The translations under genes and the position numbers were made by a program. The notes below the pieces were generated by a model that saw only the letters and a list, made by a program, of their open reading frames with translations, was not told the DNA's origin and did no database searches. From positions 248,001 to 312,000 of the forward strand of contig NZ_WMID02000001.1 in NCBI RefSeq assembly GCF_009711165.2: 64,000 nucleotides of DNA. Reading direction: 5' to 3'. How positions within the stretch are numbered: position 1 is the first letter of the stretch; each line of letters begins with the position of its first letter. Origin of the DNA: Flavobacterium sp. MC2016-06. Lineage in GTDB: Bacteria; Bacteroidota; Bacteroidia; Flavobacteriales; Flavobacteriaceae. Positions 15,602 to 26,223 of this stretch are shown here, one piece after another.

Positions 15602-15655
15602 TAGCATTATGTCTTACTGAATTACCTATAATATTTTGGTTCTTGGCAATTTTAA

Positions 15656-15701
15656 GAATTAAAGATGCGAGTTTTTCTTCTGATGTACAAATTTACAAGT
15701 A
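15656..15701 (-). repeat. Partial attC-like repeat (apical part), inverted
   Basis: Twenty bases, ATTAAAGATGCGAGTTTTTC, are identical to the reverse complement of the cassette repeats at 19.5-24.2 kb. After about 10 diverged bases, CAAATTTACAAGTA matches their next segment with one base missing. Only the inner portion of the hairpin is present. It overlaps the TAAATTTG box (15688-15695) that could serve the Crp-type gene. Confidence 0.65.
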
Positions 15702-15877
15702 AAAAAATATTGGAGTTATTATAATATTTAAACTGATTTTTATAATAAAATAGTAAATAATAGAAAGTAAAAATAGAGCCTAATTTTTACTTTTATTTAA
15801 GTGCTAGATAAGTATACCCGATCATACAGATATGTCTCGATAATCTTTAGTGCAAATTTGCAATTTTATTAATAAAA

Positions 15878-16926: not shown

Positions 16927-17047
16927 CCCGACCGCTCGGATGTGCGCAACGATAGCGCGGAAATTCTTTCCGTGCCCGTTCCTAATATTAATAAAAACTG
17001 TATTTTCCTTTTTTAAATCTGTTAAGATATACTTTGCGGCGCGATCG
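16927..17047. repeat. Dispersed palindromic intergenic repeat, copy 2
   Basis: About 121 bases, closely matching copy 1 over its first 100 bases. It lacks about a dozen bases near its right end (GGATTACAAATCC in copy 3). It separates the gene fragment at 16833 from the tandem paralogues at 17056-17962. Confidence 0.8.
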
Positions 17048-17055
17048 GGATATAT

Positions 17056-17439
17056 CTAATTCTTCTTTATATTTACTTTTTTGTTAAATATATCTTCTTC
17101 TTGCTTTTGTTTTATCCAAATTAGATCATTAGTTTTATTGGTGTAATTCCAAATCATTTCCAAATCATTCATATCCTTATATTTAATACAAACCACATCA
17201 TCTTTTACAATATAATCGACGCTCTGATGATCTAAAACAAATCTTATATTCTTGTAAAAATTTGATGGAGTTTCATTTCTTTCAGCGATTCTATAGAAGT
17301 CATTTTGAAAAAATATTATTTGGCGATCAAGTTCTCTTGACAGAACAGGTCGAATTTCAACATACCTATTTTGCCAATAATAGTAAACCGAAAGCGAAAG
17401 GATTAGAATGGTCAAGGTTATATATATTCTCTTTTTCAT
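17056..17439 (-). CDS. Small membrane-anchored protein, paralogue A
   Basis: 127 residues: one N-terminal transmembrane helix (about residues 5-22), then YYWQNRYVEIRPVL and a periplasmic domain with FYKNIRFVLDHQ. It is clearly paralogous to the next gene (YFYWQNRYVELRPV, YYKNIKFVLDRS). The two overlap by 4 bases. Tandem copies of a small anchored protein without an enzyme motif suggest immunity proteins or another dosage-selected function, but I recognise no family. Confidence 0.65.
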   Translation of the reverse strand: MKKRIYITLTILILSLSVYYYWQNRYVEIRPVLSRELDRQIIFFQNDFYRIAERNETPSNFYKNIRFVLDHQSVDYIVKDDVVCIKYKDMNDLEMIWNYTNKTNDLIWIKQKQEEDIFNKKVNIKKN

Positions 17440-17861
17440 TTTAACGAACTAAATCCCTTAATGATACTATCTAATTTTTTTTTATTTTCATAATCTCCAT
17501 TAATACTGTCCATTTCTCTTTTTAATTTAAACCAAGCAGGATTTGTTGATCTAGTGGTGTAATTCCACATAAGATTCATGTCGTTTAAGTAGTAATTTCG
17601 AACATAAATTATTCCGTTTTTTTCAATATAGGGTTGACCTGAACGATCTAGAACAAATTTTATATTTTTATAATAATTTGGCGAAATTTCATTTGGTTCT
17701 GCAAATTTGTAAAGATCATTGTCAAAAAATATTATTTGGCGAGTGTAATCTTCTTCTGCTAAAATTACAGGACGAAGTTCTACATACCTGTTTTGCCAAT
17801 AAAAATAAGAAGCAAATAAAAGAATTATAACGATTATCGCTATGTATATTTTCTTTTTCAT
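17436..17861 (-). CDS. Small membrane-anchored protein, paralogue B
   Basis: 141 residues with the same plan as paralogue A: N-terminal helix, WQNRYVELRPV, a YYKNIKFVLD strand and a C-terminal helix ending KLDSIIKGFSSLK. Its start overlaps by 4 bases the end of an upstream fragment with an almost identical tail (ELDRIIKGFSSLK), showing that at least three tandem copies once existed. Function unknown. Confidence 0.65.
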   Translation of the reverse strand: MKKKIYIAIIVIILLFASYFYWQNRYVELRPVILAEEDYTRQIIFFDNDLYKFAEPNEISPNYYKNIKFVLDRSGQPYIEKNGIIYVRNYYLNDMNLMWNYTTRSTNPAWFKLKREMDSINGDYENKKKLDSIIKGFSSLK

Positions 17862-17962
17862 TTTAAAGAGCTAAATCCTTTAATAATTCTATCTAATTCT
17901 TCTGTATTTTTATATTCCGAAGGATCTAAATCAGTTTTTGTTTTAAAAATATTTTCATCCAT
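17858..17962 (-). pseudogene. Truncated third paralogue (C-terminal end only)
   Basis: Thirty-four codons (MDENIFKTKTDLDPSEY, then KNTEELDRIIKGFSSLK) whose tail repeats that of paralogue B. The transmembrane helix and most of the domain are missing. It lies about 115 bases from repeat copy 3. It keeps the ATGA overlap with paralogue B, so it may still couple translation even if the peptide is non-functional. Confidence 0.6.
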
Positions 17963-18078
17963 ATTTTACTGGTAATTATTTAGTTGTCTCACAAATTTGA
18001 GATATGAAAATAACTATCATGTCTAGAATAAGATTTAAAAATATCACTAAAAGTCTAAATATTATTTTTTGTATAAAT

Positions 18079-18215
18079 CCCAATCGCTCGGATATGCGCA
18101 ACGATAGCGCGGAAATTCTTTCCATGCGCGTTCCTATATTTAATAAAACTGGTTTTCCTTTTTTTAATCTCTTAAGATATACTTTGCAGGGGAGGATTAC
18201 AAATCCGCGCGATCG
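18079..18215. repeat. Dispersed palindromic intergenic repeat, copy 3
   Basis: About 137 bases, similar to copies 1 and 2, with the full-length right end (GGAGGATTACAAATCCGCGC). The three copies lie within 4.7 kb, each next to a broken gene or the IS relic. After it, AAAACAGGTATTTATACG (18222-18239) also occurs at 51887-51904. Confidence 0.8.
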
Positions 18216-18354
18216 CTTTTAAAAACAGGTATTTATACGGGATTTATTTTTTTATTAAAAACCTATTTTTGAAAGAGAATAAATACTGATATTTATCAGA
18301 CATATCCACCCAATTTAGAGTAGATAAGTCGGATATCGTCAGGCATATATACAA

Positions 18355-18363
18355 GTTATGCGT
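18355..18363 (+). other. Left boundary of first gene cassette
   Basis: GTTATGCGT marks the start of the first cassette. Its exact reverse complement, ACGCATAAC, is the outer arm of the repeat at the other end of the same cassette (19488-19496). No full repeat lies to its left, so this is where an attI-like primary site would be expected; none is recognisable in the roughly 100 bases upstream. Confidence 0.65.
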
Positions 18364-18393
18364 CATGCTAAAAAAAAAACTCAAAAGAAACTT

Positions 18394-19479
18394 ATGAAAT
18401 TAGATTTGTTTAAAAAAATTGCTGAAATTGACGAATGTAACTTGCATCCAAAATTTAAATTTTTACGTGATAATCCTATGCTAATAGGAGAAAGAAATGT
18501 TCTTACTAATTGGACAGATGGGTTTATAGATAGAGACAACAAAATTATAAAAGAATTTCAGACGACTTTTCACTCAAGTTTTTGGGAATTTTATCTATTT
18601 AGAGTTTTTAAAGAATTGGATTTTGAAATCGATTTTACAAAAGATAGACCTGACTTTATTATCAATTACCCTGAAAAATTTTTCATAGAAGCTGTTGTTT
18701 CAAATATTAAGAAAGAAGGTCGAGATGAAGAAACAAGAAATGCAGAAGATGTATCTTCAATGATTGTTCCTCCACATAAACAAAGTGATTTTCATGAAGT
18801 AATGGATGAAGCAATTGTTAGAAATTCTAACGCAATACTTAGTAAAAGCGAAAAATATATTAATAAATATATTAATTGTGATTGGGTTGATAGCGACAAA
18901 CCATTTGTTATAGCCTTAAGTTCTTTTGACCAAGTTAATTATGGTAGAGAGCATTTTTATCCAATGTTAGCATTATTATATGGACACTATTTTCATCCAA
19001 AATTAGATGATTATGAATCAAAAGAATCAATATTAAAACTAGGAACTAATTCATCAATTCCATTGGGTCTATTTAAAGACGAATCTTATGAACATATTTC
19101 CGCTATAATTTTTTCTTGCACTGTAACATTAGGAAAATTAACTTCTCTTTCAATTTCTAATGGTGAATCTGATGTTCAATTAAATGGTGTAATAAATGTA
19201 CGCCATGATTATGAATATCCTCATTACAAACCTCAAGTTGTAACAATGGATAATCCTGAATATTTGAGCGATAGTTTATTTATATTCCATAATCCACTTG
19301 CTAAAAATAAATTGAATCCAGAAATATTTAAAAATTCAAATGTAATTCAAGTTATTCCAAAAAATGGACAATTAAGCTTTGAAGGTGAAAATACACCTAT
19401 TTATTCTCGATTGAATATATATAAAGCCATGATTAATGATTATTTTGTAAATTTAATAAGTGAAGACTTTAACACATAA
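18394..19479 (+). CDS. Cassette 1: PD-(D/E)XK-like hypothetical protein
   Basis: 361 residues from ATG 18394. The alternative ATG at 18358 lies inside the cassette boundary and would leave almost no leader. FRVFKELDFEIDF, then RPDFIINYPEKFFIEAVVSN resembles the core of PD-(D/E)XK nucleases: Asp in PDF and Glu in IEA, but the usual Lys two residues later is not present, as in several Mrr-like or defence families that read IEA or VEA. No signal peptide. It is the only gene of its cassette. A nuclease or restriction role is inferred; the remaining 250 residues are unfamiliar. Confidence 0.65.
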   Translation: MKLDLFKKIAEIDECNLHPKFKFLRDNPMLIGERNVLTNWTDGFIDRDNKIIKEFQTTFHSSFWEFYLFRVFKELDFEIDFTKDRPDFIINYPEKFFIEAVVSNIKKEGRDEETRNAEDVSSMIVPPHKQSDFHEVMDEAIVRNSNAILSKSEKYINKYINCDWVDSDKPFVIALSSFDQVNYGREHFYPMLALLYGHYFHPKLDDYESKESILKLGTNSSIPLGLFKDESYEHISAIIFSCTVTLGKLTSLSISNGESDVQLNGVINVRHDYEYPHYKPQVVTMDNPEYLSDSLFIFHNPLAKNKLNPEIFKNSNVIQVIPKNGQLSFEGENTPIYSRLNIYKAMINDYFVNLISEDFNT

Positions 19480-19487
19480 AAGCACGA

Positions 19488-19624
19488 ACGCATAACAGCC
19501 GTTACAAGATATTTGGGTATTAGGCTGAATTTAAAAATGGTTTTGTACTTGTAAAATTTGCGTATAATGGGAAAAACTCGCATCTTTAATCCCAAACCTC
19601 CTGTATCGCCAGAACGTTAGTGGC
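19488..19624 (+). repeat. attC-like cassette recombination site 1
   Basis: A 137-base imperfect hairpin. The outer arms are ACGCATAAC and GTTAGTGGC. Inner stems pair TTACAAGA with CCTGTA-type sequence, TTTGGG with CCCAAA, and TTTAAAAATG with CATCTTTAA, around an apical loop. The left arm is a 9/9 match to the start of its own cassette (18355) and pairs poorly with its own right arm. Length and fold resemble long integron attC sites; the arms fit RYYYAAC/GTTRRRY only partly. Confidence 0.75.
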
Positions 19625-19668
19625 AAGCGCCCTTGAAAACAGGAAAAATAATCTGCAAAAAAAATCAA

Positions 19669-20175
19669 ATGAATAATTACAAATTAATCTATTTAGTTTT
19701 TTCATTTCCAATTTGTTTGTTTGCACAAATAAAACCAACAAAGTCTACAATTCAGAAAGTAGTCAAAAACAGTGTTGTGGAAATGAAAAAAGGGAAGTTT
19801 AATTTGCCTTCAAATAAGTCTTGGAAATTTAATAACATTGATAGTTTGTACTTTAAAAAAGATACTTTAAATACTTTTGTTTATAAAGAAGGTTCAAAAC
19901 ATAAGAGTTTGTGTGAAGTAGTTGATTGGACATTTTATAATAAAAATGCTTTCGTTTTGGGTGAAGAATCGAATTGTAAAGAACCACCAACAAGAAAGGC
20001 CACTCAAAGTCCGAAAGATTTTTATAAAATTGCTATTTATACAGTTGAAAATGAAACTATGATAGATGTTTTAAGGTATGATAAAATGATTGTAGAATCT
20101 TTTATCGCAATAGAAGTTTCAGAATCAGAATTTGGTACTAAAATAAAATTAGTGAGAAGATTTAATGCAAATTAG
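19669..20175 (+). CDS. Cassette 2: exported hypothetical protein
   Basis: 168 residues from the ATG at 19669, which opens a signal peptide (LIYLVFSFPICLFAQ). A TTG at 19633 would place 12 residues before it and is unlikely. The mature part is Lys/Ser-rich and probably periplasmic, with no family I recognise. It fills one cassette (19616-20306), transcribed in the same direction as all others, with its stop 3 bases before the next repeat. Confidence 0.65.
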   Translation: MNNYKLIYLVFSFPICLFAQIKPTKSTIQKVVKNSVVEMKKGKFNLPSNKSWKFNNIDSLYFKKDTLNTFVYKEGSKHKSLCEVVDWTFYNKNAFVLGEESNCKEPPTRKATQSPKDFYKIAIYTVENETMIDVLRYDKMIVESFIAIEVSESEFGTKIKLVRRFNAN

Positions 20176-20178
20176 CCA

Positions 20179-20315
20179 GCCACTAAAAGCCGTTACAATA
20201 GATTTGGGCATTTGGCTGAATTTAAAAATGGTTTTGTACTTGGAAAATTTGTACATAACGGGAAAAACTCTCATCTTTAATCCCAAACCTCTTGTAGCGC
20301 CAGAACATTAGTGGC
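20179..20315 (+). repeat. attC-like cassette recombination site 2
   Basis: Outer arms GCCACTAAA and ATTAGTGGC; the interior is like site 1 (GATTTGGG/CCCAAACC, TTTAAAAATG/CATCTTTAA). The left arm matches the reverse complement of its cassette start (GTTAGTGGC at 19616) in 8 of 9 bases. The usual AAC/GTT ends read AAA/ATT here, so the outermost base may have drifted. Confidence 0.75.
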
Positions 20316-20354
20316 AAGTAGTCCGCAGAATCAGAAAATTCATCATGAATAATT

Positions 20355-20735
20355 ATGACTAAAAAAAAAATAATAATCCTTCTTTTAATATTACTTATTG
20401 CTGTTTTTACATATTCTTTTTTTTGTATGCCAAAAAAAATTGAAACTGAAGGAGGCTCTTGTTATCAAGGAATAACGGCAACGATTATACATTTCTTTTT
20501 AATAGTTTGTTCCTTTTTAAATTTACTATCAATATATTTAATTTATTATAAATCGAAAATAGAAACTGCAAAAGTATTATGCATTGTTTCGCTAATAATT
20601 TGGTCTATAGGTACTTTTATACATTCCTCTGAAAATATTCAAATTGGAATTATATATTTTACTCCTTTCATAATATTGAATTTAATTATGATATTTTTAT
20701 TTAAAAAATGGAATAACAACGTAAAAACAATATAG
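20355..20735 (+). CDS. Cassette 3: small integral membrane protein
   Basis: 126 residues with about four hydrophobic helices: IIILLLILLIAVFTYSFF at the N-terminus, then segments near residues 42-65, 75-92 and 98-117. The charged loops are short, and there is no enzyme motif or known family. Small multi-helix proteins are frequent in integron cassettes and sometimes act in phage exclusion, but nothing here shows that directly. Confidence 0.62.
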   Translation: MTKKKIIILLLILLIAVFTYSFFCMPKKIETEGGSCYQGITATIIHFFLIVCSFLNLLSIYLIYYKSKIETAKVLCIVSLIIWSIGTFIHSSENIQIGIIYFTPFIILNLIMIFLFKKWNNNVKTI

Positions 20736-20748
20736 AAAAATAATACCA

Positions 20749-20884
20749 GCCACTAACAACTGTTACAAGAGATTTGGGTATTTGGCTGAATTTAAAGATG
20801 GTTTTACACTTGAAATATTTGTGCATAAAGGAAAAATCTCGCATCTTTAATACCAAACCTTTTGTAGCGCCAGAACGTTGGCAG
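20749..20884 (+). repeat. attC-like cassette recombination site 3
   Basis: Outer arms GCCACTAAC and GTTGGCAG. The left arm matches its own cassette start (ATTAGTGGC at 20307) in 8 of 9 bases, but only 5 of 9 against its own right arm. The interior stem is ACAAGAGATTTGGGTATT with AATACCAAACCTTTTGT, leaving unpaired bases as in attC sites. Confidence 0.78.
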
Positions 20885-20919
20885 TAATTAATCCTCAGAA
20901 CGACAAATTCAGTAAATTA

Positions 20920-21864
20920 ATGACATTAGAAGAAAGAATTTTAGAAATTGAGAACAATTACATTACTCATAAAACGTTCCACTTAAATAGCGAGAAATAT
21001 ATATATCTTGGAAATAAGGACAATAAAAAGTGTCGTTTTTGTTCAAAATCAGAACCAGTTGTTACTTTTAACACAATTGCTCACGCTATTCCTGAATTTG
21101 TAAATAACCATAGATTGATAAGTTATTATGAATGTGATTCGTGTAATTCTAAATTCGCAAGAACAATAGAAACTCATATGGGAGATTATATGAATGTTTA
21201 TCATACATTATCCCAAATTAAAGGAAAACGTGGAGTTCCTTCATTTAAAAAAGGCAGAGAAAAATCAAGGATTGATTATACTTCGGAAGGTTTAAAAATT
21301 GATTATTTTCAAGAAGAGAAAGAAAATGTAACGATTGACGAAAAAAACAAAACTATTACAATAACAGCTACTAGAGCCACATATATTCCAATAGCAATTT
21401 ATAAATGCCTGACTAAAATGGCTTTAACAATAATGAAAGATGAAGAATTAGTCCATTTTGAAAAAACAATAAATTGGATAAATGAAGAAAAGCATAATGA
21501 AAGTAGATATTTTATGAGTAGTTTGGAATGTGTTTTTTCAATAACTCCAGGTCCACTTCCACATAACTTCACAACTTGTATTTTATTAAAGAGAAAAAGC
21601 AATAATTTAAAAAATGAACCATATATGATATTTTTATTAGCTTATGGTAATTATACATTTCAAATTTATGTTCCAATGTGCGATTTAGATACTAAAGATG
21701 AACCATTCAGAATGATTCCAATTCCAACTCCTTTTGACTTAAAAAATGAATATGGAAGTCCTGATTATAAATTTTTAGATTTTTATTCAACGGATAAATG
21801 TAAAGACGATATAGCAAGTTTAACAATGAGTTTTGAGAAGATAATAAAAAAAAACGTAACTTAA
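20920..21864 (+). CDS. Cassette 4: HNH-endonuclease-like protein
   Basis: 314 residues from ATG 20920; the upstream TTG at 20878 lies within the repeat. Near residue 30, KCRFCSKSEPVVTF is followed by AHAIPEFV and YYECDSCNSKFA. The CxxC, His and CxxC arrangement matches the zinc-stabilised HNH_5-type endonuclease core. The rest is soluble and unfamiliar. The cassette context suggests a defence or nuclease role. Confidence 0.68.
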   Translation: MTLEERILEIENNYITHKTFHLNSEKYIYLGNKDNKKCRFCSKSEPVVTFNTIAHAIPEFVNNHRLISYYECDSCNSKFARTIETHMGDYMNVYHTLSQIKGKRGVPSFKKGREKSRIDYTSEGLKIDYFQEEKENVTIDEKNKTITITATRATYIPIAIYKCLTKMALTIMKDEELVHFEKTINWINEEKHNESRYFMSSLECVFSITPGPLPHNFTTCILLKRKSNNLKNEPYMIFLLAYGNYTFQIYVPMCDLDTKDEPFRMIPIPTPFDLKNEYGSPDYKFLDFYSTDKCKDDIASLTMSFEKIIKKNVT

Positions 21865-21865
21865 C

Positions 21866-22003
21866 TACTGCTAACAGCTGTTACAAGAGATTTGGGCATT
21901 TGGCTGAATTTAAAGATAGTTTTGTACTTGGAAAATTTATGCATAATGGAAAAATTACGCCTCTTTAACCCCAAGAATCTTGTAGCGCCAGAACGTTAGT
22001 GGC
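21866..22003 (+). repeat. attC-like cassette recombination site 4
   Basis: Left arm TACTGCTAAC, right arm GTTAGTGGC. The left arm matches the reverse complement of its cassette start (GTTGGCAGTA at 20877) in 9 of 10 bases. That start is unlike all the other cassettes, so this is the clearest case of arm sequence following the cassette and not the repeat. The interior hairpin is conserved. Confidence 0.8.
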
Positions 22004-22046
22004 AAGTGCCCGTGAAAATGGAGAATTCAATAACATAAAACAATAG

Positions 22047-23414
22047 ATGGGAAGTGTAACATATAATTTTTTAGCCGATAGTTTATTCTTTCACGAAAAC
22101 AGTATACAAAATAATTTCGTTAAAGAAAGTGATGAAAGAATTGAAAAGGAATTACAAGATTATAGAAAACATTGCATTGATAATTATGAAGAATTAATTA
22201 AAGAAATTGTTGACAGAGATTCTTTCTTAAAAGTTTTTTCTTCATCTGATGAAACACCAATAAATTTATTAAAACAGACATCATTGTATGTTGACCAATT
22301 TATCATTAAAGATCCATTATTTAATTTGACAGATATAAAATCTGAAACAAATACTGTAATGGCAAAATATTTGGGATACCAAAATAATGGCAAAATTGAC
22401 AGAAACAAACTTAAAAAAGCATCTTCATTTTTAAAAGATATTACTCCAATGATTGCGGGAAATTATGCAAAAATATTTCCGTTGAGTTATCATTTTGAAG
22501 CCCCTAAAGAAATTCCATTAAACTTACCTACTGATTACTATAATGGAGTTCTTCCAAAAGAAATTATGGAGTTCTTTTGGGATAATATTTCAGTCCGTTC
22601 AATGGAAAAATTGAAATCAGGCGATGGTTGGCAAGTTGTTGAAGACAAACTTTATCCTTGTAGAGGTATTGTAGTAGATATTAAAAAAACAAATTTAAAG
22701 TCTAGTATGATTTATCATTTATTTGAAATGGAAATTTTAAGCTTGGATGAAAAAACAGGAGTAGCAACTTTTAGACAAACTTTACCTGACACAGTACCGG
22801 ATGCAAATCATTTTAATGCTTGGGTAACACAATCAATAAATTCTACATCAAAACATTTTTTCGATGGAGTTTTTAAAGAAAATTTCATTTCTTCTAATCT
22901 TAATGCAACCTACCTATGCGACAATGATTTTACAAGCAAGTTAATATCTCAAAACTACAATATAAAAGAAACAATTCAGACTGAAACTGCAAATCGAATA
23001 ATTAATTTTGACTTACCTTTTCTGGATAACATTGATATCGATAAATTAATGACAGTGAGAGAAATGGATTCAGAAGTTTTTACGAATTTCAGAATCGAAC
23101 TTGAAAAGCATTTTAGAGAATTAAGGATGTTAAGCGATCCGAAAATTATTCAACAAAAAACAGAAAATATTTTTCACGAATTAAATGAGGTTCAAGTTCA
23201 AAAAATAAAACAAAAAATAGATTATATAAACAAACAAGTATTTGTAAATTCTGTAATCGGTGTTGGTGGTTTAGCTGGTGGTTTTTCAACAGGAGGATTC
23301 AGTTTGTTAGCAACAGCTTTAGCTTTAGGTAAAGGATATAAAGACTATATTGATTATAAAGAAAAAGTAAAAGAAAATCCATCATATTTATTATGGAAAA
23401 TAAGAAAAAAATAA
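22047..23414 (+). CDS. Cassette 5: large hypothetical protein
   Basis: 455 residues, mostly soluble and Lys/Asp-rich with no signal peptide. Near the C-terminus a Gly-rich hydrophobic stretch (SVIGVGGLAGGFSTGGFSLL) could insert in a membrane. A coiled-coil-like segment (residues about 350-400) precedes it. I recognise no family. The combination of a long cytosolic body and a short membrane-active tail resembles abortive-infection effectors, but this is only an analogy. Confidence 0.62.
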   Translation: MGSVTYNFLADSLFFHENSIQNNFVKESDERIEKELQDYRKHCIDNYEELIKEIVDRDSFLKVFSSSDETPINLLKQTSLYVDQFIIKDPLFNLTDIKSETNTVMAKYLGYQNNGKIDRNKLKKASSFLKDITPMIAGNYAKIFPLSYHFEAPKEIPLNLPTDYYNGVLPKEIMEFFWDNISVRSMEKLKSGDGWQVVEDKLYPCRGIVVDIKKTNLKSSMIYHLFEMEILSLDEKTGVATFRQTLPDTVPDANHFNAWVTQSINSTSKHFFDGVFKENFISSNLNATYLCDNDFTSKLISQNYNIKETIQTETANRIINFDLPFLDNIDIDKLMTVREMDSEVFTNFRIELEKHFRELRMLSDPKIIQQKTENIFHELNEVQVQKIKQKIDYINKQVFVNSVIGVGGLAGGFSTGGFSLLATALALGKGYKDYIDYKEKVKENPSYLLWKIRKK

Positions 23415-23420
23415 ATGCCA

Positions 23421-23554
23421 GCGTCTAACAGCTATAAGGGATTTAGGCATTTGGCTGAATTTAAAGATGGTTTTGTACTTGGAAAATTTGCCCATAATGG
23501 AAAAAACTCATTTCTTTAATCCCAAACATCTTGTAGCGCCAGGACCGTTAGATG
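23421..23554 (+). repeat. attC-like cassette recombination site 5
   Basis: Left arm GCGTCTAAC (containing GTCTAAC, a fit to RYYYAAC) and right arm GTTAGATG (a fit to GTTRRRY). The left arm matches its cassette start in 7 of 9 bases. The stem AGGGATTTAGG is slightly shorter than in the other copies. This site is closest to the classic integron consensus. Confidence 0.78.
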
Positions 23555-23594
23555 ATATTTTGAAAAAACGAGTGCAAAACAACAAACAAATACA

Positions 23595-24179
23595 ATGATA
23601 ATGGAATTAAAATCTTTCTTTGATTTTACAAAACTACCGACAAAAATATTTATTGTCATTTCTTTTGTAACTGGTTTTTTTATTTTTTCTACAGAAACGC
23701 TTTTAAAAAAATTCAGATTTGATAAATTGGAAGAATATGGAGCATATATTGGAATCGTCTTTTTATTTTCAACGTGTCTAATAATCTTAAATTTGATAAT
23801 TTGGATATATAATAAAATTGATTTCAATATTAAACTCAAGAAATTTAAAGCCGAAATAAAGCAAACTATTAAAGATTTAGACCATCAAGAACAATCTGTT
23901 ATCAGAGAATTTTTTATTAAAGGACAAAGCTCAATTTCAATGCCTATTAATGACGATGTAATATCTGGCTTGTTAGACAAAAAAATATTGAAAATGAATA
24001 GACAAATTAATGGAAGTACTGTCGGATATGGTATGACTTTTCCTTTATCAATAGATAACTATGTAAATAAGATTATAACATTTGAGGACATAAACTTTAT
24101 CCAAAACCCTTCTGAACAACAAAAACAATATATTTTGAATAATAGACCAAGTTGGGTAAGGGATAGTTGGAGATATTAA
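23595..24179 (+). CDS. Cassette 6: SieB-like superinfection exclusion protein
   Basis: 194 residues. Two N-terminal transmembrane helices (IFIVISFVTGFFIFSTE and AYIGIVFLFSTCLIILNLI) are followed by a cytoplasmic domain with LDHQEQSVIREFFIKGQSSI and PINDDVISGLLDKKIL. This matches the superinfection exclusion protein B family, in which prophage members block growth of other phages. Length is typical. It ends the array and is followed by a truncated repeat. Confidence 0.75.
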   Translation: MIMELKSFFDFTKLPTKIFIVISFVTGFFIFSTETLLKKFRFDKLEEYGAYIGIVFLFSTCLIILNLIIWIYNKIDFNIKLKKFKAEIKQTIKDLDHQEQSVIREFFIKGQSSISMPINDDVISGLLDKKILKMNRQINGSTVGYGMTFPLSIDNYVNKIITFEDINFIQNPSEQQKQYILNNRPSWVRDSWRY

Positions 24180-24188
24180 AAAAACATC

Positions 24189-24275
24189 CGCTAACAGTCG
24201 TTACAAAAGATTTGGCTGAATTTAAAGTTTGTTTTGCACTTGTAAAATTTGTGCATAATGGAAAAACTCGCACCG
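24189..24275 (+). repeat. attC-like site 6, truncated at array end
   Basis: The left half is present (CGCTAAC, GTCGTTACAAAAGATTTGGC, apical TTTGCACTTGTAAAATTTGTG and GGAAAAACTCGCA). The whole right half, including the CCCAAACC arm and the terminal GTTAG, is missing. The array therefore ends by deletion or by fusion to the terminator region of the XRE gene. Confidence 0.72.
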
Positions 24276-24292
24276 TAAATAATGTTCTAAAA

Positions 24293-24325
24293 CAAAAAAA
24301 GAGACTCGAAAGTCTCTTTGTAGAA
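24293..24325 (-). terminator. Intrinsic terminator of the XRE regulator gene
   Basis: AAAGAGACT and AGTCTCTTT form a stem with a CGAA loop. On the minus strand it is followed by a seven-T run, 20 bases after the stop of the XRE gene. Confidence 0.75.
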
Positions 24326-24344
24326 TTAATATATCTTCTATAAA

Positions 24345-24749
24345 TTATTTACCAATCAATTTCTCAAGCCTCGCCATCATTTCATCTTTCTCTTTCAACA
24401 TACGCTCGTACAAGGCAATTTTTTCTTCGTGCATCTTTAGCACTTGCTCTATAGGATTAAAAATAGGATTATCATTTCTCTGATATCCAATACCATTATC
24501 TCCAAAAGTATTAGAAATAATATTTATAGCCTGTTCTTCATCAAAATTCTGAAAAGCTTCAACAGGAATTTTTAATACAGCCGAAATTTGTTTCAACAGA
24601 TTGTCTTCAATTACATCTTTTTGCTCCAGCATAGAAATTTTCTTTTGGTTCCAGTCTTCGCCCAGATCATAAGCCAATGCTTCCTGCTTTATATTAAGCA
24701 TTTCTCTAAAACGTTTTACGTTTCTTCCCTGATGTATTTTCTGTTCCAT
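24345..24749 (-). CDS. XRE-family helix-turn-helix regulator
   Basis: 134 residues from the ATG at 24749. The N-terminal Cro/C1-type helix-turn-helix reads RFREMLNIKQEALAYDLGED then KKISMLEQ. The C-terminal part is a coiled coil (residues about 95-134: KMHEEKIALYERMLKEKDEM). Highly similar stand-alone XRE proteins are widespread in Flavobacterium, and their role is not known. A longer start at 24815 would add a non-conserved leader. Confidence 0.85.
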   Translation of the reverse strand: MEQKIHQGRNVKRFREMLNIKQEALAYDLGEDWNQKKISMLEQKDVIEDNLLKQISAVLKIPVEAFQNFDEEQAINIISNTFGDNGIGYQRNDNPIFNPIEQVLKMHEEKIALYERMLKEKDEMMARLEKLIGK

Positions 24750-24909
24750 AACGAATGTCAATTTTTCTAAAGGCTCAAAGATAAAGCCATTTGGATTAAA
24801 AATCCTGAATTTCAAAGATAAAAAAATATCTCGTAAAACATCCGTTTGTCAGATATTATATCTACTTTTCGGATAGATTACCCTTGTGAAACTAAATTGG
24901 TTTATGGCA

Positions 24910-25090
24910 GTAAACTAATATAGAATGCTACAAATAGTATGGAGGATTTGAAAAGATTGTTATATTTAAGGAAGAATTGTCTTTCTTTGGGTTTATGAAT
25001 TACTGGCTGGGATTTAAAAATAAATCTATTTGTTTTTCGAAACTTTTTTAAGAAGATGATAATGTATTCCATTAATAAATCTTCCTTAAA
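24910..25090. repeat. Degenerate copy of a dispersed intergenic repeat
   Basis: The stretch ATGGAGGATTTGAAAAGATT and following TCTTTCTTTGGGTTTATGAA resembles 47117-47280 and 56258-56420. The terminator-linked left end of those copies is missing. It makes up most of the gap before the thioredoxin gene. Confidence 0.5.
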
Positions 25091-25170
25091 TTTTGTGGCA
25101 AAAATATCATAGTTGTGTGGCTAAAATTGATTTAATATTCAATAATTATTCTAATTACAAAATATTACCC

Positions 25171-26223
25171 ATGAAAAAACAAACTTATATTATTATCCTA
25201 TTTTTTTTTATTAATCTAATTCAAGCACAAAAGAAAAGTCAAGATTATTTTACATTAAAGGGTGTTTTAAAAAACAATTACAAAGGGTATTTACACGTTT
25301 CTTATGGTGATAAAAATGATAGTTGTTTAGTAGAAAATAATAAATTTTCTTTCAAAGGGCATGTAAAAGGTAAGATGATACATGTATTTTTCTGGGTGAG
25401 AGGAAAACCTTGTGTAATGAAAAAAGAATTTTTTATCGAAAATAAAAACATTAAAATCAACTTAGCTTTTTATGAAGAAATCCAAGACAAAGATACTACA
25501 GTCTTTTTTCATACAAGTTCAATTGTGGGTACAAAAACAGCTCTAATACAGTACGATTACGAAAGATTTGCTGCTAGTAATTTATATGCTAAAGATCGGG
25601 ATCAAAAGTTATACAGAAAGCTAAACACAATGGCAGTTAAAAACCCAAAAAATTATTATGTGGGTACTTTAATAGAGGAAATGTGTTGGGATAGCACCTT
25701 GGATAAAAATCAATTAAGAAAAATATACAGCAAATTAGATAAAAAAAGTCAACGAAGCGGTACTATTTATATTTTAGAGAAAAAACTATATCCTAAAAAC
25801 GACATAAATGTAAACGATATGGTTTATGATTTTGAATTGCCGGATGAAAACAATACTGTATTTAAAACAGTATCTTTAAAAGGGAAATGGTATCTTATAG
25901 ATTTTTGGGCAACCTATTGTAGTATCTGTATCGCTGCATTTCCTAAATTAGAAAAGATTCATGATGTATATAAAGACAGGAATTTTGAAATTTTAGCAGT
26001 TTCTGTTGATAAAGATTTACAACAATGGCAAAATTTCCTGAAAACACATGATTTAAAATGGAAAAATTTGATTGAAAAAAGAGGTATTGACGATAGCGAA
26101 GCTGTAAAAAAATATATTTCTTTTACCCCATCAAATTTTTTAATTAACCCCGAAGGTAAAATAGTTGCAAGAAATATTAGTCCAGAAGATTTAGAAAAAT
26201 TTCTCAAAAAAAAATTAAAATAA
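25171..26223 (+). CDS. TlpA-like disulfide reductase with DUF4369-type N-terminus
   Basis: 350 residues from the ATG at 25171, which opens a signal peptide (IIILFFFINLIQAQ). Residues about 25-120 form a beta-rich domain like DUF4369 (FTLKGVLKNNYKGYLHVSY). The C-terminal half is a thioredoxin fold with FWATYCSICIAAFP; the two Cys of CSIC form the redox centre. NFEILAVSVDKD and a cis-Pro region (ISFTPSNFLI) complete it. Periplasmic proteins with this architecture are common in Bacteroidota and probably reduce disulfides in cytochrome or secreted-protein maturation. Confidence 0.85.
   Translation: MKKQTYIIILFFFINLIQAQKKSQDYFTLKGVLKNNYKGYLHVSYGDKNDSCLVENNKFSFKGHVKGKMIHVFFWVRGKPCVMKKEFFIENKNIKINLAFYEEIQDKDTTVFFHTSSIVGTKTALIQYDYERFAASNLYAKDRDQKLYRKLNTMAVKNPKNYYVGTLIEEMCWDSTLDKNQLRKIYSKLDKKSQRSGTIYILEKKLYPKNDINVNDMVYDFELPDENNTVFKTVSLKGKWYLIDFWATYCSICIAAFPKLEKIHDVYKDRNFEILAVSVDKDLQQWQNFLKTHDLKWKNLIEKRGIDDSEAVKKYISFTPSNFLINPEGKIVARNISPEDLEKFLKKKLK

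Follow-up and report, generated by a model that had tools for sequence, protein, structure and literature searches.

An integron-like cassette array in a Flavobacterium genome, read as part of a Bacteroidota cassette platform with its own non-IntI tyrosine recombinase

A 64,000-nucleotide stretch of Flavobacterium sp. MC2016-06 (contig NZ_WMID02000001.1, positions 248,001 to 312,000; the window in what follows) contains, from 18355 to 24310, six one-gene units that alternate with sites of ~137 nt, and the locus raises the question of whether these units are mobile gene cassettes and, if so, what kind of recombinase moves them. A reading of the letters alone (the original prediction) had described mobile, integron-like cassettes served by a divergent recombinase. 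Based on comparisons within the source genome, the genus and the phylum, we are highly confident that the array in the window is part of an integron-like platform of cassettes in Bacteroidota, one that would have its own, non-IntI tyrosine recombinase. As read from sequence, this platform consists of one-gene cassettes, folding attC-like ends, joints at GTT, an attI behind a co-oriented recombinase gene, and a -7 promoter box. In the window it occupies 18264-24310 and includes the promoter box, an attI-like site ending at 18355 and the six cassettes, with the recombinase alone missing; a motif scan of the window found no tyrosine recombinase, in agreement with the predicted lack of an integrase gene. 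Each of the six cassettes closes with an attC-like hairpin, all on one strand, the last one truncated.

The arms of these sites were compared with the cassettes that they close, matching the seven bases outside AAC/GTT against the reverse complement of the same cassette's first bases. Over 10 bases, the arms of cassettes 1 to 6 of the window match their own cassette start at 9, 8, 8, 9, 7 and 8 positions, and the two arms of the same hairpin match each other at 5, 8, 5, 7, 8 and 3 positions in sites 1 to 6 (the last site being truncated; site 5 has its GTT shifted by one base, and its right arm was placed manually). The sites, coordinates, arm matches and one-strand layout were all as originally predicted. 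The further claim that hairpin arms match each other worse held for sites 1, 3, 4 and 6; site 2 gave a tie and site 5 the reverse, so that the contrast is modest inside the window alone. The source genome is a draft of 6.17 Mb in 121 contigs, in which a DNA search found 35 site copies and an iterated profile over nine stretches found 37 sites, some truncated. Apart from single sites, they belong to the window array (C1b), to its sister on the same contig (C1a, nine sites) and to arrays on contigs 16, 24 and 3 (C16, C24 and C3). For the 29 cassettes of these five arrays, five single or fragmentary sites excluded, 161 of 203 outer bases matched within the same cassette and 93 within the same hairpin; shuffled pairings had a mean of 91 and a maximum of 126 (20,000 shuffles). 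The effect was reproduced in other Flavobacterium loci, where 222 adjacent site pairs from 48 loci gave 1287 own-cassette matches versus 656 within hairpins (shuffled pairings 628, maximum 688, 2000 shuffles), and six or seven of the seven bases matched in 172 of the 222 pairs for the own cassette and in 17 for the hairpin. The own-arm match fades with the gap between detected sites, from a mean of 6.4/7 below 600 bp to 3.0 above 2500 bp. The effect vanishes at long gaps because a site in between was probably missed, and it thus acts as a built-in control.

We characterized the fold of the site with a hairpin model taken from 26 sites of the source genome; its 28 pairs are spread over the arms, a stem of 15 pairs and an inner stem. 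In 150 sites from other genomes, 85.4% of the cells pair versus 69.0% in shuffled data, and double changes occur in 27 of the 28 pairs, with 643 such cells versus 232 shuffled and none of 500 shuffles as high. The 150-site alignment was fitted to the hairpin model and leans towards it; slid versions of the hairpin, run as a control for the 643, were far lower, with at most 129 double-change cells. The stem swaps whole sequences, with GTTACAAG/CTTGTAGC in the window and GTTTGGCGA/TCGCCAAGC in others. The attC-like site is folded and its structure is conserved across species. The DNA fold of site 3 gives the long hairpin, at an energy no better than that of shuffled sequence. RNAalifold was also applied to the 26 own-genome sites and returned a weak structure unlike an attC hairpin, which we rejected. 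The core boxes fit the canonical consensus only partly, as the original prediction had it: GTTRRRY is found in 19 of 284 right arms beginning with GTT and RYYYAAC in 27 of 300 left arms ending with AAC. What is conserved in the right core box is GTTR and, mostly, a G at position 8.

The AAC box of the attC is also where an IS91-type element sits, comprising a tyrosine recombinase of ~320 amino acids (aa) and an IS91-like transposase, both named by eye; its end GGTTTAGTTCAAC falls exactly on that box. These insertions run against the array direction and were seen at six sites in two genomes (L074 6911, 10260 and 16350; L170 255 and 3884; L081 6461); the element seems to target these attC sites.

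A model of the site (R1), made from one genome, the source genome, identified sites at E <= 0.001 in 164 of 249 genomes of the genus, in a genome set with one genome per species; the counts per genome are lower bounds, with 13 candidates scored in each. Among the first 20 array loci, a tyrosine recombinase gene lies upstream on the array strand in four; others are cut before any array start. Homologs of this recombinase occur patchily, in 147 of the 249 genus genomes at E <= 1e-50. Sixty recombinase loci were chosen by hand across the E-value range, with a preference for long contigs. Of the 141 site matches (E <= 0.05) near the 60 genes, 140 lie downstream on the same strand, one lies upstream and none is on the other strand. 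A tyrosine recombinase near other arrays, which the original prediction had proposed to look for, was found, with downstream sites in 41 of the 60 loci. Many contigs end soon behind the recombinase, as is expected if repeats break assemblies. Across the phylum, a homolog (E <= 1e-60) is present in 82 of 296 genomes and 54 of 139 genera. Algoriphagus, Pelobium and Hufsiella are among the named carriers of homologs, together with many environmental metagenome-assembled genomes. Twenty loci from other genera, up to other classes, have sites at eight, with 15 matches (E <= 1), all downstream and on the recombinase strand; related recombinases accompanied by sites thus extend into other classes of Bacteroidota.

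The recombinase gene is followed by a conserved entry site. For 43 arrays (the 41 site-bearing loci plus four earlier loci, minus two), the start of the first cassette was predicted solely from the arm of that cassette's own attC. In 30 arrays the predicted start follows the recombinase stop codon at a distance of 92-107 bp, and in five at 146-160 bp. Seven of the other eight starts follow what by eye resembles the end of an undetected attC, and the last (L132) uses the arm of an inserted IS91-like element and is not evidence. The evidence is the constant distance, because the starts are best matches over a scanned interval, in which 8 to 10 matches out of 10 are partly expected. The ~75 bp ahead of the first-cassette start contain a long inverted repeat and mostly end in TATATACWAG followed by TT. 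A hidden Markov model (HMM) of attI, made from 30 sites, all of other genomes, matches the window at 18279-18357 (E 8.2e-14 in 180,778 bases) and ends at the predicted boundary; attI copies also precede C1a and a lone cassette at locus L037, and C1a itself contains one. Own-arm complementarity in 48 loci of other genomes, together with a conserved attI at a fixed distance, bears out the original prediction of mobile integron-like cassettes. Among the 30 sites, the inverted repeat falls into several sequence types (GTGTGA/TCACAC, GCGAA/TTCGC, CGCTA/TAGCG and GTCTGA/TCAGAC), which may co-vary with the recombinase.

Between the recombinase stop and the first cassette, the motif TAnnTTTG is present in 28 of 35 arrays, in comparison to a mean of 2.7 (maximum 9) in shuffled sequence and 3.2 (maximum 8) in random windows. 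It stands 86-92 bp before the cassette in 23 of the 30 arrays of the close type and 131-149 bp before it in all five of the second type. TAnnTTTG is given in part of a published study as the -7 consensus of the F. psychrophilum housekeeping sigma factor (PMC9723704). In the window, the box TATTTTTG at 18264-18271, on the forward strand 91 bp 5' of the first cassette and reading into the array, is a candidate cassette promoter (Pc).

Passages of two published reports define IntI by an additional domain near patch III (PMC9668308, PMC2426708). The spacing between the catalytic arginine and the HxxRH motif could be parsed in 60 of 63 Flavobacterium loci, always as 91-92 residues, in 19 of 20 other loci, always as 91-96 residues, and in 28 of 30 IntI loci, always as 133 residues. 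The array recombinase is without the IntI-specific insertion of ~41 residues, and its alignment to IntI4 (2a3v) skips 2a3v residues 186-242. TIGR02249 scores of four array recombinases were 202.5, 201.0, 210.5 and 194.2 bits, the last protein being broken at its 5' end, with a cut-off of 265. In a quick tree, which carries a long-branch warning (Xer and an IS91-type row), 14 IntI rows (every second of the 28) lie on one side of a branch with a Shimodaira-Hasegawa-like approximate likelihood-ratio test (SH-aLRT) support of 100, and 40 recombinases, with rows hand-chosen to span array and no-array loci, lie outside. The divergent recombinase of the original prediction thus takes the form of a tyrosine recombinase that heads the arrays, has no IntI insertion and falls outside the IntI clade. 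It combines an XerA/Xer-like catalytic domain with ~65 extra N-terminal residues. A structural model reached a predicted template-modelling score (pTM) of 0.54; the TM-scores of the best rows, 0.37-0.50 of model length, are modest, and the searches mainly cover residues 68-330. Two array recombinases pass NCBIfam NF040815, a model with the name 'site-specific tyrosine recombinase/integron integrase', and so does XerD of the source genome; because XerD passes too, this product name does not mean IntI.

Signs of movement were found in the arrays of other genomes. In F. galactosidilyticum (G045), one array stretch contains three copies of a 754-bp cassette, two of them in tandem and one apart, all identical at 754/754 positions; two further cassettes occur in two places each (730/732 and 646/647 identical). 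In four comparisons of such copies, homology begins at GTT in all four and ends at GTT, a few chance matches aside, in three; in the fourth it goes 14 bases into the next cassette, which starts similarly. Identical copies at different array positions hence lose homology where the original prediction had placed the boundaries. The cassette joint lies inside the GTT of the core site, with the exact base beyond the resolution of these sequence comparisons. At E <= 1e-30, cassette 1 finds only itself among the 249 genus genomes, and a search of genome contigs, a set possibly without the source genome, found no relatives of it. Cassette 4 is present in eight other genus genomes at E <= 1e-15. In one genome (G013), as judged by eye, an attI-like sequence is followed by a first cassette whose gene is a homolog of that of cassette 4 (71% protein identity); this cassette has the start GTTAGTGGC and the end arm GCCACTAAC. 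This array start (L359, ~1380-2600) has the same attI type and a first attC with a different body; because that attC escapes the model, the diversity of attC sites exceeds what R1 detects.

A total of 253 cassettes from 45 genomes have a median length of 863 bp. An open reading frame (ORF) of at least 60 aa is present in 229 of them, and the longest ORF lies on the array strand in 209 of the 229. The cargo scan covered 88 of these 209 proteins, namely all 28 of the source genome and 60 random ones of the 181 others. Among the defence-library families listed (25 of 56), matches were to PD-T7-5, helicase-type proteins (RTasHel, GajB) and PDC-S70; among the Pfam families listed (25 of 44), they were to SieB, a YoeB-type toxin, GNAT, LprI, MerT and several domains of unknown function. 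Each of the families listed was matched by a single protein.

The window array itself can be read as follows, all parts up to the last site being on the forward strand. A leader block at 18075-18357 has 91.5% identity over 283 bp (blastn) to the block 5' of the sister array's second attI (L036:12983-13260); the final 105 bp of the window block are 96.2% identical (blastn) to the leader ahead of the sister array's first cassette, and an exact 44-mer is common to the window leader block and the sister array leader. The attI-like entry site (18279-18357) contains the inverted repeat TCAGACATATCCACCC/GAGTAGATAAGTCGGA and ends in TATATACAAG followed by TT. Cassette 1 (18355-19615) carries a gene at 18358-19479 (373 aa from the first ATG) whose product is like the anti-phage protein PD-T7-5 (270 bits), and closes with site 1 (19487-19625; R1 154.7 bits). 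Cassette 2 (19616-20306; gene 19669-20175, 168 aa) has no Pfam or PADLOC match and closes with site 2 (20178-20316; 158.4 bits). Cassette 3 (20307-20876; gene 20355-20735, 126 aa) has the look, by eye, of a membrane protein, again with no Pfam or PADLOC match, and closes with site 3 (20748-20886; 159.0 bits). The product of cassette 4 (20877-21994; gene 20920-21864, 314 aa) reaches 26.4 bits for HNH_5, slightly under the gathering threshold of 27.5, and site 4 follows at 21866-22004 (150.4 bits). Cassette 5 (21995-23546; gene 22047-23414, 455 aa) matches nothing better than E 0.05 and closes with site 5 (23420-23556; 127.4 bits). Sites 1 to 5 are part of the R1 model. Cassette 6 (23547-24300, the end being uncertain with its truncated site; gene 23595-24179, 194 aa) encodes a member of the SieB superinfection-exclusion family (92.1 bits, cut-off 26). 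Site 6 (24186-24310; 62.8 bits, outside the model) has lost its 3' part, with a junction as in the last site of the sister array (blastn).

Behind the array, a trailer at 24210-24891 matches the trailer of the sister array at 86.4% over 700 bp (blastn) and contains an inverted repeat resembling a terminator and, on the reverse strand, a gene (24345-24815) with the look, by eye, of a helix-turn-helix regulator. A trailer with this possible regulator gene closes both arrays (L036:15781-16472 in the sister), and a third copy, with no array detected at it, lies at L036:1010-1619. Ahead of the array, a lone degenerate half-site is seen at 15634-15706 on the minus strand, opposite to the array, and two adjacent paralogous small minus-strand genes (17056-17439 and 17436-17861) have a DNA identity of 76-79%. 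An Rfam scan of 17000-26000 gave nine matches, all under gathering thresholds and none meaningful.

In the source genome, C1a and C1b have the same leader and the same trailer, with no common cassette protein; among the 28 own-genome cassette proteins, no pair matched at E <= 1e-3. Four attI copies lie within ~50 kb of one contig (L036:13181-13260, L036:6537-6615, L037:3049-3127 and window 18279-18357), each followed by a cassette and none with an intact recombinase, and a fifth, weaker match lies at L039:7836-7908. A homolog search (E <= 1e-50) of the draft source genome found no intact array-type recombinase. The sister array is preceded, at the expected place, by a C-terminal recombinase fragment with an internal stop, which belongs to the array-recombinase type by its C-terminal sequence; the fragment ends 104 bp, and the -7 box lies 91 bp, ahead of the first cassette. 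No such fragment was seen ahead of the window array. Because no intact recombinase was found in the source genome, the window array probably stays frozen if none is provided in trans; an assembly gap could still hide one.

Several results weigh against the platform as we describe it. For the 26 own-genome sites, taken alone, covariation is marginal, with 21 to 33 of 500 shuffles reaching the same level; the conclusion on structure is drawn from the 150-site alignment. Furthermore, the folding energy of one site, site 3, is no better than shuffled on either strand (z -0.43 and -0.22). Nineteen of the 60 recombinase loci are without a site. Six of these have at most ~1.2 kb of downstream sequence, and the 13 with longer downstream sequence have recombinases at 72-75% identity (four), 61% (one) and 37-43% (eight); either the site model misses the sites of those 13 loci, or their recombinases do something else. 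The promoter box is missing in 7 of the 30 close-type leaders. In addition, part of a survey of tyrosine recombinases indicates that the insertion is not fully conserved in an 'integron-like' subgroup (PMC8138268), and the array recombinases might fall in that subgroup.

It is possible to read the array instead as a CALIN, a cluster of attC sites lacking an integron integrase, left by an ordinary IntI integron that lost its IntI, with the linked recombinase an irrelevant neighbour. True IntI genes do occur in Bacteroidota, where 84 of 296 genomes exceed the cut-off, and the cassette logic would be the same. We nevertheless consider such a remnant very improbable. Among the matches listed, none of 18 same-genus genomes, the source genome included, is over the IntI cut-off, and R1 applied around 15 IntI genes (263 kb) gave one match, at E 0.28. 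The sites lie behind a non-IntI recombinase in 41 of 60 loci, with 140 of 141 on its strand, and it is behind this recombinase that attI stands at a fixed distance. The fragment ahead of the sister array is of the array-recombinase type, and the core boxes depart from GTTRRRY. A regular-expression search for canonical attC around 15 IntI genes returned next to nothing and was too strict to carry meaning.

We give an equally small chance to the reading in which the array recombinase is a housekeeping Xer relative for chromosome dimer resolution and XerC/XerD move the arrays. The source genome has an XerD above the TIGR02225 cut-off and an XerC-like gene, below its own cut-off, elsewhere; the array recombinase is patchy rather than nearly universal, with none in the source genome at E <= 1e-50, and it is tied to attI. 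Least probable of all is that the hairpins are mere repeats or RNA-processing or terminator structures between immobile units, with the recombinase acting elsewhere: the arrays look co-directional (longest ORF on the array strand in 209 of 229) and ordinary recombination can multiply repeats, but nothing about a repeat or terminator would make an attC arm match its own cassette start, homology between cassette copies breaks off at GTT, and in 35 of 43 arrays the arm-predicted start follows the recombinase at a fixed distance, so that this reading is already refuted unless all three share another cause.

For the integron-like platform, we propose the following mechanism. The recombinase would excise cassettes as circles and insert them at attI, cutting within GTT and probably acting on one folded attC strand, as the fold and its covariation suggest, and the leader promoter would express the cassettes inserted at attI. 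As judged from sequence, the platform would work like an integron and fails IntI-family membership. In a wider sense, we regard it as probable that Bacteroidota have, across the phylum, a second kind of integron that does not depend on IntI and in which an XerA-like recombinase would move folded-attC cassettes into its own attI, either as a precursor of the IntI integron from before the insertion or as a convergent invention. Its standing as a kind of its own would turn on the way in which the recombinase deals with the folded site and on a rooted phylogeny. Among the open-licence PMC papers on integrons that were listed, none describes such a system by its title or the start of its abstract, in a scope from which preprints and most subscription journals fall out.

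If this is true, it has several consequences. Two papers regard the additional domain of IntI as a requirement for integron recombination (PMC8138268, PMC9668308); if a large family can deal with attC-like hairpins in the absence of this domain, the domain is not the sole solution. The origin of integrons would become testable by comparing the IntI and array recombinase systems. Integron surveys probably overlook the arrays of Flavobacterium and other Bacteroidota, because they look for IntI and canonical attC; for Bacteroidetes proper, the IntegronFinder 2.0 survey names a single complete integron, that of Salinibacter (PMC9024848). The cassettes themselves are a reservoir in which most genes are unknown and some resemble anti-phage defences.

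Compared with known systems, the platform is closest in layout to IntI integrons, both class 1 and chromosomal, with which it has in common one-gene cassettes, folded attC-like ends, the GTT joint, an attI adjoining a tyrosine recombinase gene, a candidate promoter reading into the array, and a cargo of defence and unknown genes. It differs in that the array recombinase lacks the additional domain of IntI and lies outside the IntI clade, and in a core box of GTTRnnnG instead of GTTRRRY. In IntI integrons the integrase is usually divergent from the array, whereas the recombinase here is on the array strand. The promoter box lies behind the recombinase stop codon, unlike that of class 1 integrons, where part of a published account places it inside the integrase gene (PMC8876359). 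With a CALIN, which is defined by two or more attC sites that the canonical attC model recognises and by the lack of a nearby IntI, the window array shares the absence of an intact recombinase gene nearby; unlike a CALIN, it keeps its own attI and promoter box, and its kind of recombinase is not IntI. XerA and XerC/XerD resemble the array recombinase in catalytic domain, motif spacing (91-92 versus 96-98 residues) and best structural match, and differ in the ~65 extra N-terminal residues, the patchy distribution and the linkage to attI and a cassette array. The 'integron-like' subgroup of simple tyrosine recombinases contains IntI, with relatives in the set that are without the insertion in the catalytic (CAT) domain; for those insertion-less members, the parts of that survey used here describe no cassette array, attC or attI (PMC8138268). 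Finally, the integrons of Spirochaetota, in which IntI is reversed according to a passage of PMC9668308, likewise have an integrase orientation off the usual layout; those proteins are IntI, and the array recombinase is not.

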